A DNA stretch of 33,871 nt from positions 1 to 33,871 of the forward strand of contig JAJZVB010000008.1 of the NCBI GenBank assembly GCA_021845885.1, written 5' to 3'. Origin of the DNA: Pseudomonadota bacterium. Lineage in GTDB: Bacteria; Pseudomonadota; Gammaproteobacteria; Burkholderiales; JABEVD01. Shown here piece after piece: positions 8,471-16,338 of this stretch. Position 1 is the first letter of the stretch; every line of letters starts with the position of its first letter. The notes beneath the pieces were generated by a model. The model had not been told where the DNA came from. It searched no databases and was given only the letters and a program-made list of their open reading frames with translations. Both the position numbers and the translations under genes were made by a program.

Positions 8471-10099
8471 TCAGACCTTGAATCTCGAAACCGATTCCTG
8501 CAGTTTGGACGCGAGTCGTTCCAGATGCTGCAGCGCTTGGGAAGTCTCGCGTATGGATGAGGAATTTTCCATGGCGAACCCGGCGATCTTCTCGACGCTC
8601 AAAGCGATTTCCTGGCTGGCCAGGCTCTGTTCCCGGGTTGCGCCGACCATGGAGCGGATCTTCTCCAGCGTGTTGTGCGCGCCTTCGTTGATCTTGGCGA
8701 GCGATTGAGCCGCCTCGTTCGTGAGGCTGACGCCCGCCGACACTTCCCGGCTGCTCTCGTCCATGATGGATACCGCCTGGTCTATTTCCTTGCAGAATGT
8801 TTCGATCATCACGGCCACATCGGTCGTCGCATGGGCGGTGCGCTCGGCAAGTTTTCTGACTTCGTCAGCCACCACGGCAAAACCTCTTCCCTGTTCGCCG
8901 GCTCTCGCCGCCTCGATGGCCGCATTCAGCGCGAGAAGATTGGTCTGGTCTGCAATTTCCTTGATGACCATCACGATCTTGCCGATCTCGGCCGAGCGCA
9001 ATTCGAGTGAGGAGACGAGCTTTGCGGAATCGCTGACGGAGACCGAAACCCTCGTCAATTCCTGGGCCGCGTCGACAGCGACTTTCTGACCGGCTTTGGA
9101 CAGTTCCTGCGCAGTGTTGGCGATGATTTCCGTTTCCGCCGCATCCTTGGCCACCTGTCTGATTCTGGCGCTGATATCGTCCACGCCTGCGGAAGTGGAT
9201 GAAGCTGCGGTGCTCTGCTGCTGCGAACCTTCGGCTATCCTGGCCGAAGCCTGCGCAAGCTGGGTCGCGGATTGCGACACTTCGTCGGCATAGCCGTGAA
9301 CCTGATGCACGATCTCCTGGAAATTGTCGGCCAGTGCGTTGAAGGCTCTGGCCGCCATGCCGATCTCGTCGTTGCTTTCGACTTCCACGCGCTTCGTGAG
9401 ATCGCTGTCATGCTGCATGCGCGTCATGACGGCCTGAAGATTTTTGGCCGGCTTGATGATGGTTCTGATGAACCAGCCGATGACGAAGAAAAGCAGGATC
9501 TGGAGGACGAGCTGCCCGATCCAGAGGCCCATGTCGACCCGTTTCAGCCCATCGTAATCCTCGGAAAGGTCGAGCAGGATGCTGGCTGCGCCGTTCGAGC
9601 TGCCCACCTTCACCTGGTGGCACATCAGGCAGTTCGTGCCGCGGAAATTGGTGCTCTCGATGAAGGGAATCACCGCCCTCAGGCCGGGCTTGCCGCCTTC
9701 AAGGGTCGTCTTCAGGAAAATGGGTTTTTCAGTGGAAAGCGCAGCCCGGTCCAGTTCATCTTTGGCCTGCTCTTCAGGAAGCCCTGGGCCGAACTGGTCG
9801 GAGACCTGCTTCGCCCTGATGATCCTGAGTTCGGCCACGCCCTGCGAGTCGCCCATTTTCTTGACCATCAGCGTCCTGTTCGCGGGATCGCTGATCATGC
9901 CGGTGACCATCAGCATGTTCATGCCGTTCAAGAGGCCGTCGGCCGATATCTGCGCGCGGATCTTGGCTTCTTCGATCATCCTTTGCTCGAAACGCGCCAT
10001 GGTCCAGCGCTGGGATGCGGCCAGCACGACGATCAGGAATCCCTGGATCAGGATCTGCAGTTTCGCCTGGATACTCAAAGAGTTCCATGTCGTTTTCAT
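8471..10099 (-). CDS. Methyl-accepting chemotaxis protein with periplasmic CxxCH haem-binding motif
   Basis: Two TMs, HAMP-like region, and MCP signalling hairpin [49 protein letters not shown] in the periplasmic domain. Confidence 0.95.
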
Positions 10100-10109
10100 T
10101 TTTCCCCCT

Positions 10110-11924
10110 TCAGGCTGCCGCCTCCAGCTTGATCGGCTCCCGCTTGAACAGGCTGGCCTTTGTCGAAGATTCGCCGGAAAGCAGCTCTTCCATGTCGAGA
10201 ATCAGCACGATGGAGCCGTCCCCGGAAAGCGTGGCGCCCGCCACCCCCTTGGGCTTGATTCCCTTCAGCGGCTTGATGACGACGTCCTCCCGGCCGACGA
10301 AATTGTTCACGGCCAGGATGAAGTCCTTTCCTCCCGCCTTCATGAGCACGCCGTAAGTGGGAGGGACATCCTGAGGCCAGTTGATCATTTCGGAAAGCGC
10401 CCTGATGGGCAGCACTTCGTCCCTCACCACCATGGTGGCGCGCCCGGAAACGGACTGCACCTCTTTCGGATCGATGGGGATGATTTCCCTGACCATGGCC
10501 AAAGGCACGGCGAAAGATTGTCCGCTGATCTGGACGATCAGGACGGGGAGAATGGCGAGCGTCAACGGGAGATAAATCGAGAAGGTCGATCCCTTGCCGG
10601 GGACGGATGCGATTTCTATCCTGCCGTTGAGCTTCTGGATGTTGGTCCTGACGACATCCATGCCGACTCCCCTTCCGGAAACATTGGATATCTTGTCCTT
10701 GGTCGAGAAGCCGGGCATGAAGATGAGCCCCAGGCTTTGCTGCTCGTCCATGTTGTTGATCATTTCCTCGTCGACGATGCCTTTTTCAAGCGCCTTCCGC
10801 TTCAGGGTATTCGCGTTCATGCCGCGCCCGTCGTCGGTGATTTCGATGACGATATGATCCCCGGCCTGAATGGCGGAAAGCCTGACGGCCGCTTTTTCAG
10901 GTTTGCCTGCCGCGCGGCGCTCTTCAGGCGTCTCGATGCCGTGATCGACCGCATTCCTGATGAGGTGGACGAGCGGATCGGAAAGCTCCTCGATCATGGT
11001 TTTGTCGAGTTCGGTTTCCTCCCCTGAGATTTCAAGCTCCATTTCCTTGCCGAGTTGGCGGGCGAGATCGCGCGCCATGCGCGGATATTTCTGGAAAAGG
11101 CGGCCCACGGGCTGCATGCGCGTTTTCATGACCGCGTTTTGCAATATGCCGACGAGGAGATCGAGCTGATTCACGGCCTCGTCAAGGTCGCGCAGCGTCT
11201 GCTGGTCGTTCTTCCCCTGCAGGATATTGTTTTTCAGGCAGTTCAGGCGGTTTTTCGTCAATCCGATTTCGCCTGAGAGATTGAGCACCTGGTCGAGCCT
11301 GGTCGTATCGATCCTGATCGTGGTTTCCTTTTCCACCGCAGCCTTGTCCGATTCCCGCCTTGGGCTTTTTTCCCTGACGGCATCGGTTTCACGCCGCTGC
11401 CGCGCCGCCTCGACGGGGGGGGGCACCGGATGAGTCTGCGCTACCGGCTGAACTACAGGCTGGGCCAGGCTGTGGTAAAATTTTTCCCAGTCCGGGCCTT
11501 TTTCGGCAGCCCTGGCCTCAACTGCCAGCGCCTCGCCCTTGACCGCGCTGGAAAGCTTTTCCAGGAGGACCGCATCGGCAGGAGAAGGCTGGGTGGCATG
11601 GGCGAGCGATCCGAACATGTCCCTGACTGCGCCTGTCGCCGCGAAAATCGCGTCCATGATGCCAGGCGTCATGACGAGTTCACCGTTCCTGAGCTTGTCG
11701 AAAAGATTCTCGGTGAGATGGCAGAGCTTCACCATCTCCGTGGCATTGAGGAAGCCAGCCCCCCCCTTGATGGTGTGGAAATTCCTGAAGATGTCGTTGA
11801 GCAGCTTCTTGTTGCCGGGATCCTTCTCAAGGTCGACCAGCTTGTTGTCGACATCCGAAAGCAGGTCGCCTGCTTCCTGCAGGAAATCCTGGAGCATTTC
11901 TTCATTGCCGGCAAAGTCGTTCAT
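10110..11924 (-). CDS. cheA: Chemotaxis histidine kinase CheA
   Basis: HPt site [14 protein letters not shown], dimerisation/ATPase motifs ([34 protein letters not shown]), C-terminal CheW-like domain. The linker looks too short for a P2 domain. Confidence 0.95.
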
Positions 11925-11936
11925 TCCGCTCCTCCC

Positions 11937-12638
11937 TCAAAAACCCAGACTTTCCAGGAGCTCGTCCACCTGAGCCTGATTACTTACGACATCCATTCTG
12001 CCATCCGCATTGATGACAGGACCGTTCATCAATCCTGTCGGCGTTTCTGCCTGCGGCGAATTCTCGATCAGCAGCTGGAGAAGCTGGGATTCGACGCCTC
12101 TCACGATTTCGACCACTTTCTTGATGACCTGACCGGTGAGGTCCTGGAAATCCTGGGCCATCATGATTTCGGTGAGCTGGCTGTTCGTGGCTTTCACCTG
12201 AACCGGAATGTCGTTGAGGTAGTTCCTTGTTTTTTCGACAAGTTCCTTGAATTCGTCGACGGATAGGCTGTTTTCGAACACTTTCTGCCATTGGGTGGAA
12301 AGCGCCTGGGCGTGGTCGGACAATTTTTCCTGTATGGGTCTTGCGATTTCAGTCGCGTTAAGCACGCGCTCGGCGGCCTGCTGGGTCAAATTGGCGATGT
12401 AGGCGAGGCGATCGTTCGCATCGGGGATGGAGACAGCCACTTTTTCAAGGGATTTGTCGAAGCCCAGTTCGTGCAATGCGTCGAAGAGATCCCGTGTCAA
12501 ATGGCCGATCTTCGAAACCACGGGTTCCTGCGCCTCATGCTGCACTTCCTGGCGCTTCACAGGCGCTTCGGGTTCGCTTTCCATGTTCGATTGAACTATG
12601 GAATCGAACAGTGCCTCCAGATCCTCGGTGTCTTCCAT
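11937..12638 (-). CDS. cheZ: Chemotaxis phosphatase CheZ
   Basis: Between cheY and cheA; MAQDFQDLTGQVIKKVVEIV (CheZ active-site helix) and C-terminal QAQVDELLESLGF (CheY-binding tail). Confidence 0.93.
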   Translation of the reverse strand: MEDTEDLEALFDSIVQSNMESEPEAPVKRQEVQHEAQEPVVSKIGHLTRDLFDALHELGFDKSLEKVAVSIPDANDRLAYIANLTQQAAERVLNATEIARPIQEKLSDHAQALSTQWQKVFENSLSVDEFKELVEKTRNYLNDIPVQVKATNSQLTEIMMAQDFQDLTGQVIKKVVEIVRGVESQLLQLLIENSPQAETPTGLMNGPVINADGRMDVVSNQAQVDELLESLGF

Positions 12639-12640
12639 GT

Positions 12641-13030
12641 CTATCCTCCCATGGTCTTGAAGATTTTTTGGAGTTTCTCGTCGAGCGTCGCGGCCGTGAA
12701 GGGCTTGACGATATAACCGCTCGCCCCCGCCTTGGCCGCCTCGATGATGTTCTCCTTCTTGGCTTCGGCCGTCACCATCAATACAGGCAGATGCTTGAGC
12801 ATCGGATCGGACCGGATCGACCTCAGCAGGTCGATTCCGCTCATGTTGGGCATGTTCCAGTCGGAAACGACGAATTCGAAATTGCCGCTCTGCAATTTTT
12901 TCAACGCATCCACGCCGTCCTCGGCTTCCGTGACATTGGGAAAGCCCAGCTCCTTGAGCAGGTTGCGGATGATCCTGCGCATTGTCGAAAAATCGTCGAC
13001 CACCAGAATTTTCAAATCGGCCTTCGCCAT
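12641..13030 (-). CDS. cheY: Chemotaxis response regulator CheY
   Basis: [30 protein letters not shown]...[17 protein letters not shown]...[26 protein letters not shown]. Start placed at ATG 13030 rather than 13069. Confidence 0.97.
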
Positions 13031-13105
13031 AACATCTCCATAATCAATCCATTCGAATGCAGCGCTCAATCCGTGGATTATTCCGAATAGGATCTATTTG
13101 GTCAA

Positions 13106-14032
13106 TTATCTTTCCAGATACTGCCTCATGGTTTCGGCCAGGATGCTCGGGTTGAATTTCGCGACATAGTCGTCCACCCCGACGGCCTTTCCCATCGACC
13201 GATTCGCTTCCGAGGAAAGGGAGGAATGCATGACTACCGGAATCCCGGCGAATCGCGAATCTGACTTGATGTTCCGGGTGAGGACATAGCCGTCCATCTC
13301 GGGCATTTCGGCGTCCACCAGGATCAGCCTTATCCTTTCGTTGAGCGGCGCTTCCATGCCCTGGGCGGCCATGGCCTGAAGTTTTTCCCAGGCTTCCCTG
13401 CCGTTGTTCGCCTGATAGTATTTCACGCCGAGCTTGTCCAGCACCTGCATGATTTCCTTCCGGGCCACCATGGAATCGTCGGCGAAGAATATCGTGGTTT
13501 CCCCTTCAGCCTGGACCGGCGTGACATCGGGAATGTCCGATTCACCGAAAGCCTGGACCAGGATCTGTTCCACGTCCAGGATCGAAACCAGCCTGCCGTC
13601 GCCGAGTTCGGTCACCGAGGTGATCAAGCCTTCATTGCCTGTCAGCATGGATTCAGGCGACTTCACCTTTTCCCAGTCCACCCGGATGATGCGGTCGACG
13701 CTCTCGACCAGAAATCCCTGCGTCTGCCTGCTGTATTCGGTCACCATCATGGTTTCACCGATTTCCCCGTTTTCGATGTTGAGGAAACTCGAAAGATTGA
13801 GCACGGGGATGATGTTGCCCCGCAGCGAAATGATGCCGACGACGCCGGGATGCATGTTGGGCGTTTTGGTGATGGGCGGGGTCTTGGTCACTTCCCTGAT
13901 CTTGAACACGTTGATGCCGAAAGTTTCGCTCGTGCCGAGGGAAAAAAGCAGGATTTCCATCTTGTTCGATCCGGCGAGCGTGGTGCGGGCATCTATGCTG
14001 GCCAGAAGCGTATTGTTTATTCCGGATTCCAT
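13106..14032 (-). CDS. cheV: CheV-type coupling protein (CheW-REC), second copy
   Basis: CheW-like N-terminus (KMEILLFSLGTSETFGINVFKIREV) plus REC domain (FFADDS, LVDAEMPEMDGY, VDDYVAKF). Confidence 0.93.
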   Translation of the reverse strand: MESGINNTLLASIDARTTLAGSNKMEILLFSLGTSETFGINVFKIREVTKTPPITKTPNMHPGVVGIISLRGNIIPVLNLSSFLNIENGEIGETMMVTEYSRQTQGFLVESVDRIIRVDWEKVKSPESMLTGNEGLITSVTELGDGRLVSILDVEQILVQAFGESDIPDVTPVQAEGETTIFFADDSMVARKEIMQVLDKLGVKYYQANNGREAWEKLQAMAAQGMEAPLNERIRLILVDAEMPEMDGYVLTRNIKSDSRFAGIPVVMHSSLSSEANRSMGKAVGVDDYVAKFNPSILAETMRQYLER

Positions 14033-14041
14033 CAGTTTCTC

Positions 14042-14980
14042 CTAGGCGAGCAGGCGCCTGAGCGTCGCTGCAAGCTTGTGCGGCTCGAATTTCGATACAT
14101 ACTCGTCAACCCCCACGGACTGTCCGAGCTGCTGGTTGGAAGTGCCTGAAAGGGAGGAATGCATGATCACGGGGATGCCCGCGAAGCGGGGATCGGACTT
14201 GATTTTCTTGGTCAGGAGATAGCCGTCCATTTCGGGCATTTCCACATCCGTGAGGACGAGCTGGACGAGTTCCTTCAGCGGAGTGTGCATTGATTCCGCC
14301 CGGTTGGCCAGCGCAAGGAGTTCTTCCCAGGCCTGCTTTCCGTTCACTGCGCTCATGTAATCGATGTTCATCGCCTTCAGGGTGGTTTCGATCTGATGTC
14401 TCGCCACGGAAGAGTCGTCGACGAAAAAAATGGAGCGCCTGGCCTCGAGCGGTTCTATGCCGACGAAGAGATGGCTGTCGTCGAAGCGGCTGGTTTCGGA
14501 AAGAATCTTTTCCACATCGAGCAGCATGACGAGTCGGCCATCGGCGAGTTCCGTGACCGCCGTGACGAGGCCGCCCATCTTCGCGGTCAGCATTTCAGGT
14601 GGAACCTTCATGGCAGACCAGTCGAGCCTCAAGATGATGTCGACCGCTTCGACCAGGAAACCCTGAGTATGTCCGTTGTATTCCGTGACAATCAGGATTT
14701 CCGGCTTCTTGCCGGTTTCAATCCCGGCATATTTCGCAATGTCCACGACAGGAACAAGCACGCCCCTGAGGCTTACCATACCTTCCACGGCGGAAGGCAT
14801 TTCCGGCGCCCGGGTGATTTCGGGGGCGCGCATGACTTCGCGCACCTTGAAGACATTGATGCCGAAACTTTCGTTCCTTCCGCTCCTGAGATCCGTTCCA
14901 AGGGAAAAAAGCAGGATTTCCAGCTTGTTTGTCCCTGCCAGCTTGGTGCGGGCATCGATGTTTTTTAGAAGTTCCGACAT
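14042..14980 (-). CDS. cheV: CheV-type coupling protein (CheW-REC), first copy
   Basis: MSELLKNIDARTKLAGTNKLEILLFSLGTDLRSGRNESFGINVFKVREV plus REC domain (FFVDDSSVARHQIE, LTDVEMPEMDGYLLT). Paralog of the adjacent ORF, separated by 9 bp. Confidence 0.93.
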   Translation of the reverse strand: MSELLKNIDARTKLAGTNKLEILLFSLGTDLRSGRNESFGINVFKVREVMRAPEITRAPEMPSAVEGMVSLRGVLVPVVDIAKYAGIETGKKPEILIVTEYNGHTQGFLVEAVDIILRLDWSAMKVPPEMLTAKMGGLVTAVTELADGRLVMLLDVEKILSETSRFDDSHLFVGIEPLEARRSIFFVDDSSVARHQIETTLKAMNIDYMSAVNGKQAWEELLALANRAESMHTPLKELVQLVLTDVEMPEMDGYLLTKKIKSDPRFAGIPVIMHSSLSGTSNQQLGQSVGVDEYVSKFEPHKLAATLRRLLA

Positions 14981-15041
14981 GCGGATCGCCTTTGATGATT
15001 ATTTCGATACGAATCTGCGATGGTCTTGTCTGGAGAACGCA

Positions 15042-15209
15042 TCAGCATTGCTGCAAAGCATACATTCTGCAAAGAAATGCGTCTATATCGGCATCAAGCA
15101 AATCAGGCGGAATGCATCGCGCTTCCCCGTGGGTCGAGGCGACTTCCCGGGGCCATTCGACTTCCTGACATTCCCATTCCAGCGAATCCATTTGCATCGT
15201 CACGATCAT
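15042..15209 (-). CDS. 55-aa Cys-containing small protein, putative first gene of the che operon
   Basis: Below the ORF-track length cut-off. Read by hand: MIVTMQMDSLEWECQEVEWPREVASTHGEARCIPPDLLDADIDAFLCRMYALQQC*. Strong SD (GGGAGG, 5 nt before ATG), co-directional with cheV 61 bp downstream, sigma28-like promoter just upstream. Confidence 0.55.
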   Translation of the reverse strand: MIVTMQMDSLEWECQEVEWPREVASTHGEARCIPPDLLDADIDAFLCRMYALQQC

Positions 15210-15242
15210 GATCGCCTCCCTTTCAACGTCAGTCTTGATACT

Positions 15243-15269
15243 ATAACGGACGAGCGGGATAAAAGTTTA
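15243..15269 (-). promoter_or_regulatory. Putative FliA (sigma28) promoter for the che operon
   Basis: Minus strand: TAAACTTT-N11-TCCGTTAT versus TAAAGTTT-N11-GCCGATAA (7/8 and 5/8, correct spacing), ~33 nt upstream of the small ORF start. Confidence 0.4.
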
Positions 15270-15279
15270 GGTGGAGCTT

Positions 15280-16338
15280 ATGGAAAAGAAAAAACGCATT
15301 CTGATCGACATTTCCGCCCACGGCTATGGCCATATTGCCCAGACTGCGCCTGTCGTCAACAGGCTGTTCGGGCGGCAACCGCTGGAAGTGACCATCCGGT
15401 CCGGCGCCCCCGAAAATGTCCTGAGGGAGCGCTTCGATTGTCCTTTCGAATGGATAGACCGGTCCGTGGATTTCGGCATGAGGATGAAGAACGCGGTCGA
15501 CGTCGATGTGGCTGCGACGGCTTCGAATTATCGGGTCTTCCATGAAAACTGGAAGGGGAGGATTGAAGCCGAGGCAAAATGGCTGGCATCCGCTTCATTC
15601 GATCTGATCCTCTGCAACGTGCCCTATCTTCCCCTGAAGGCGGCAAAACTGGCCGGGATTCCTTCCGTGGCCATGTGTTCGCTCAACTGGGCCGACCTTT
15701 ACCGTCATTATTGCGGGGAAGGCGCCGTTTATGAAGAGATCCTGGATGCCTACCGGAGCGCTGCAGCTTTCCTCACGATCGAGCCGGCCATGCCGATGGA
15801 AGGGCTCGATACGGTGAGAGTCGGGCCTGTCGCGGAAACAGGAAAAAGAAGGAGGGAGGAACTGCGCGAACTTCTGCGCCTGGGAAGGGATGAGAAAATA
15901 GCCCTCGTTTCGATGGGCGGGATGGCCTATTCGATTCCCTTCGAAAAATGGCCCTTATTCGAGCATGTACACTGGCTTGTGCCCGAAAATGTTTCCCGCC
16001 CGGACATGACGGCTTTCGGGGCGCTTGCCATGCCCTTTGCCGATCTGCTCGCATCATGCGATGTGCTGGTCACGAAGCCGGGCTACGGCAGCTTCGTCGA
16101 AGCGGCGCTTTGCGGCGTTGCCGTGCTCTATATTTCAAGAGGAGACTGGCCTGAAGCGCCTTTTCTCGTGAAATGGCTGGCAGGAAACGCAAGATGCCTT
16201 GAAGTGGAGAGGAAAGCGCTAGAAGAAGGCGATATCGGCGAACCGCTGAACAGGCTTCTTGCCATGCCCGAAAAACCATTGCCCCTTGCGACAGGCATTG
16301 GGCAGGCGTCGGATTTCCTGGCGGCGCTCTTTACTTGA
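15280..16338 (+). CDS. Glycosyltransferase-like protein (MurG/GT28-like fold)
   Basis: ILIDISAHGYGHIAQTAPVVNRL N-terminus (nucleotide-sugar glycosyltransferase-like) and C-terminal DVLVTKPGYGSFVEAALCGVAVLYISRGDWPEAPFLVKWL. Confidence 0.65.
   Translation: MEKKKRILIDISAHGYGHIAQTAPVVNRLFGRQPLEVTIRSGAPENVLRERFDCPFEWIDRSVDFGMRMKNAVDVDVAATASNYRVFHENWKGRIEAEAKWLASASFDLILCNVPYLPLKAAKLAGIPSVAMCSLNWADLYRHYCGEGAVYEEILDAYRSAAAFLTIEPAMPMEGLDTVRVGPVAETGKRRREELRELLRLGRDEKIALVSMGGMAYSIPFEKWPLFEHVHWLVPENVSRPDMTAFGALAMPFADLLASCDVLVTKPGYGSFVEAALCGVAVLYISRGDWPEAPFLVKWLAGNARCLEVERKALEEGDIGEPLNRLLAMPEKPLPLATGIGQASDFLAALFT

Follow-up and report, generated by a model that had tools for sequence, protein, structure and literature searches.

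Introduction

The catalogue of flagellar and chemotaxis regulons is considered all but complete. Among their described interactions, the EIDALL peptide of FliM docks in the alpha4/alpha5 groove of phosphorylated CheY (CheY-P) (PMC9126983), and in E. coli the sigma28 promoter consensus is TAAAGTTT-n11-GCCGATAA (PMC2859248). FlgV, a small flagellar protein of Borrelia and other bacteria, is reported to have been overlooked once and then spotted by conservation (PMC11607428).

We analysed a stretch of 33,871 nt (the window) in which a first-pass annotation had proposed an unannotated 55-residue, Cys-rich open reading frame (ORF) leading the chemotaxis operon and encoding either a small chemotaxis accessory protein or a leader peptide. 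Compared with FlgV by description only, the protein family to which this ORF belongs is likewise small, overlooked and found by conservation, and putatively flagellar, but it occupies another clade and matches no Pfam model, and Borrelia lacks sigma28. With FlgM and other small sigma28-regulated proteins it shares its small size, a sigma28-type promoter and a probably cytoplasmic location, which we infer because no signal or membrane segment was seen; unlike them, it has no Pfam or NCBIfam profile match.

The small gene and its conservation in the genus

Translation of the minus strand reproduced the proposed ORF exactly in sequence, strand and coordinates (Table 1), and Pfam confirmed that it lies ahead of genes in the order cheV-cheV-cheY-cheZ-cheA-mcp. 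The strong Shine-Dalgarno sequence ascribed to it is also present, as GGGAGG 5 bases ahead of the ATG at 15209.

Table 1. Features of the small gene, its upstream signals and the che operon in the window.
Feature	Position	Strand	Basis and remarks
Small protein gene, 55 aa	15042..15209, stop codon included	-	First gene of che operon; translation
C-terminal helix segment DIDAFLCRMYALQQC, ~residues 42-55	15045..15086	-	Alignments A2-A4; AlphaFold helix 42-54
Shine-Dalgarno GGGAGG	15215..15220	-	Sequence; GGAGG context recurs in relatives
sigma28-type -35 element TAAACTTT	15262..15269	-	Kept in congeners, constant 15-nt spacing
sigma28-type -10 element TCCGTTA (consensus GCCGATA)	15244..15250	-	Sequence
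cheV (CheW + receiver)	14042..14980	-	Pfam PF01584 + PF00072; 61 nt after the stop of the small gene
Second cheV	13106..14032	-	Pfam
cheY	12641..13069	-	Pfam PF00072
cheZ	11937..12638	-	Pfam PF04344
cheA	10110..11924	-	Pfam
Methyl-accepting chemotaxis protein (mcp)	8471..10099	-	Pfam PF00015

A six-frame search of related genomes found the frame directly upstream of cheV in 7/8 other genomes of the genus, the sole congener without a match (G002) being a fragmented bin that is 89% complete. Amino-acid identity among congeners is 40-69% for the small protein versus 88-92% for CheV, and the substitutions are mainly synonymous, with a dN/dS of ~0.1-0.4 among the genus copies. For the C-terminal tail, dN is 0.00-0.16 versus a dS of 0.15-1.14. 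The close pair L003/L004 has a dN of 0.07 versus a dS of 0.63, and its C-terminal 22 residues show no amino-acid change versus six synonymous ones. Judged by its conservation and this pattern of substitution, the ORF is a genuine coding gene, and its frame is under purifying selection, strongest at the C-terminus.

The four Cys residues noted in the first-pass annotation are present in the window copy, but they do not characterize the family: in alignment A3 the first three are found in 2/24, 1/23 and 1/24 sequences, and of the four only the last is common inside the genus. A Cys-based function (metal or redox) was dropped because these residues are not conserved. The acidic middle attributed to the protein did not hold up either, the middle being variable and the conserved acidic part being the C-terminal DADIDAF.

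An uncatalogued protein family

No significant relative of the small protein was found in Pfam, NCBIfam, PHROGs or PDB sequences, nor of other family members in Pfam, NCBIfam or PDB, and the small protein matched no profile of FliM (PF02154) or CheZ (PF04344) in Pfam or of FlgM in Pfam and NCBIfam. The earlier statement that no family is recognised is correct as far as curated libraries go; the protein nevertheless belongs to a wide family that they do not hold. A match outside the genus, in G032, is a 71-residue ORF that has a strong ribosome site and the same two ends, and searching named genomes with a small alignment yielded relatives in Gallionellaceae, Sideroxydans and Nitrosomonadales bins. 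Profile searches detected members in 36/399 genomes of the order, and in 48/399 with a broader profile, falling in at least eight taxonomic families. Class-wide, 3/369 and then 14/308 genomes matched, counting the window's own and including weaker matches that are uncertain; the spread is sparse, and the family also reaches other orders. A match in L039, a Microbacterium record, sits inside an 844-residue frame and was dropped as chance, and weak matches in G264 and G405, which sit in long frames, were not relied upon. A search of open-access papers found no description of the family.

Members are usually 66-80 residues long and follow the pattern M..VMDMSTG.IE - DEVL.AGW.P.L..LQEV - P..LA..DVDAFL.RMY..Q, in which the conserved parts are the N-terminal M..VM.M.S.E, a predicted beta hairpin, and the C-terminal helix P..L...D.D.FL.RMY, the latter segment being the most conserved of all. 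The ORF in the window's genus is so short because the middle block (DEVM.AGWNP) is absent there. By this alignment, the small protein is a shortened form of the uncatalogued family. Some genomes have the gene twice: G022 (L070, L080), with one copy near fliR and the other stand-alone without an evident sigma28 site, and also G159, G245 and G274.

A sigma28-type promoter ahead of the gene

The sigma28-like promoter proposed for the operon is present as TAAACTTT-N11-TCCGTTA at 15244-15269 and was set against the E. coli consensus; as a promoter of the TAAA-N15-GCCGATAA type it agrees with 13/15 consensus positions at a spacing of 15. For each gene, the highest-scoring sigma28-like site in the 140 nt upstream was compared with dinucleotide shuffles. 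The site is kept in each of the seven genus members scored, among them the window's (shuffle p ≤ 0.017 in each). Among 33 mutually related order members, 27 have a significant site at 0.05, nearly all with the 15-nt spacing and 55-80 nt ahead of the start codon; class-wide, ~10/13 matches have a sigma28-type site, mostly with exact spacing, some of them weak. The site reads TCAA...CCGTTA in some lineages and TAAA...TCCGTTA in the window's genus. Since the sites played no part in finding the genes, the promoter is independent evidence, from members that are nonetheless related. FliA itself scored above the cut-off in 7/9 genus genomes but not in the window's own (G000) or in G005, bins that may lack the gene cluster.

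Genome neighbourhood and co-occurrence with FliM

The fliM-fliN-fliO-fliP-fliQ-fliR cluster has the gene at its end or close to it in families f15, f29 and f45; in several cases a single methyltransferase-like gene intervenes. In f25, f50 and the gammaproteobacterial members it usually stands alone beside housekeeping genes. The neighbouring genes in other genomes were named by eye from their translations; the exception is FliM, which a Pfam search located in G052, G069, G022 and G036. FliM is present in 41/48 genomes with the gene versus 226/351 without it (p = 0.002, shared ancestry ignored), and with the window's genus excluded in 36/40 versus 225/350 (p = 0.0004, shared ancestry likewise ignored). 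Most motile genomes of the order thus have no detectable member (226 genomes with FliM have none), implying that the gene is dispensable for flagella in general.

Seven gene-bearing genomes lack a FliM match, the window's own among them. The window's assembly (96% complete, 169 contigs) gave no match to FliM, FlhA or rod proteins and none above threshold to FliA, and the same holds for G005; in G006, FlhA and FliA were found, and FliM and rod proteins were not. The window's assembly nonetheless keeps the full che operon (8471-14980). One binning gap could explain its absences because the genes share one contig cluster in some congeners (G008 C19, for one); the alternative is a real flagellar loss with the che operon retained. 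G250 and G321, both of high completeness, have family members and no FliM match, and retention outside flagellar motility is possible there.

Predicted structure and the C-terminal tail

AlphaFold, run with the family alignment, predicted a beta hairpin (residues 2-5 and 12-15), a loose middle and a C-terminal helix (residues 42-54), with a low pTM of 0.30 overall and a block pLDDT of 77-88 for the helix. The predicted helix bears the conserved D(V/I)DxFLxRMY; in congeners the tail reads LADADVDAFLRRM, the window copy reads DIDAFL, and FliM of the same genus starts LSQDEVDALLKGV. The family tail and the FliM peptide show a modest resemblance: each has a short helix, predicted in the family, with an acidic-aliphatic-Asp-x-(L/F)-Leu core, which is DVDAFL in the family and EVDALL in the FliM of this genus. 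They differ in that the FliM peptide is at the N-terminus of a C-ring protein and the family's ends a free-standing small protein, and in that the family consensus has FL or FI and a conserved (R/K)MY; statistically the likeness is modest. In ungapped scoring of the tails, with 1,824 open-frame fragments for comparison, 10/24 members fell in the top 0.05-2% for FliM-peptide likeness and the window's copy no higher than the top 9%; in many wider members the residues are xxF(I/L) and not DALL.

CheZ also ends in a short acidic C-terminal helix and is encoded in the same operon, the window's CheZ ending in NQAQVDELLESLGF. The family tails, however, scored mostly at chance level for CheZ-tail likeness and the CheZ domain is absent, and a CheZ-like tail was rejected on these grounds.

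Candidate function and its alternatives

We suggest that the gene probably encodes a small trans-acting accessory protein of the late (sigma28/FliA) flagellar and chemotaxis regulon, a reading of the sequence data to which the conserved frame, the promoter, the che and fli neighbourhoods and the co-occurrence with FliM all point. Made along with the chemotaxis apparatus, such a protein would serve as a small adaptor or modulator, its conserved C-terminal amphipathic helix docking on a chemotaxis or switch protein and its N-terminal beta hairpin and variable linker offering a second surface. Because the tail resembles the CheY-P-binding EIDALL peptide of FliM, a CheY-type receiver (CheY or the receiver domain of CheV) is our tentative candidate for the partner, and since that likeness is modest we hold docking on CheY as a weak lead and not as a result. 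It is rather more doubtful that the free small protein might bind CheY-P or the CheV receiver via its FliM-like helix and so compete with the motor or sequester CheY-P. If true, CheY-P would have a further type of target, the third alongside the switch and the phosphatases, conserved across many beta- and gammaproteobacteria and overlooked because it is short.

The promoter could also serve a FliA-switched protein that acts in a process other than the flagellum or chemotaxis, such as stress, adhesion or the envelope. That most members stand alone beside housekeeping genes and that the gene is missing from most of the order's motile genomes would fit this account, but its recurrent location next to fli genes and within the che operon and the co-occurrence with FliM speak against it, and we consider it unlikely. 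Feedback regulators can also have a sigma28-type promoter of their own, and a small protein with a predicted helical C-terminus could regulate the late flagellar regulon itself, for example as a small FlgM-like anti-sigma factor or an export-linked feedback protein. No FlgM or other Pfam or NCBIfam match was found even at permissive thresholds, however, and the family tail is, we take it, unlike the sigma28-binding part of FlgM, which counts against an FlgM-like regulator; such a role seems quite improbable.

Of the two readings offered in the first-pass annotation, the accessory protein stands better than the leader peptide. A cis-acting leader governing cheV translation or attenuation would suit the distance of just 61-68 nt from the stop codon to cheV in most congeners and the short conserved element CATCGCAGA in that spacer. 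It is nevertheless disfavoured because relatives in many families are stand-alone genes, most of them upstream of no che gene; both ends of the protein keep their amino-acid sequence class-wide, and the spacer in G004 is a mere 6 nt, so that we regard a leader as very improbable. A spurious open frame, which the short length and the absence from curated libraries might suggest, is refuted by the conservation data, and the dN/dS, the promoter with its ribosome site and the wide family leave it scarcely conceivable.

For the preferred reading, an accessory protein of the late regulon, a family kept under a sigma28-type promoter over many lineages of the class and having no Pfam or NCBIfam entry would point to an unstudied step in motility. 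The family profile lets gene callers that discard short ORFs recover the gene.

Sequences around the small gene

A scan for sigma70 promoters and terminators found none. In 7/7 genus members compared, the element CATCGCAGA is conserved in the spacer that leads from the small gene to cheV (14981-15041), and all seven end in CAG CAA TG(C/T) TGA TGC. The tandem cheV pair (13106-14980) is ~52-57% identical between its two copies, and its order is kept in all operon-bearing congeners. On the other side, a divergent gene (15271-16338, ~355 residues) has no Pfam match and looks glycosyltransferase-like by eye; congeners keep it at 52-64% identity.
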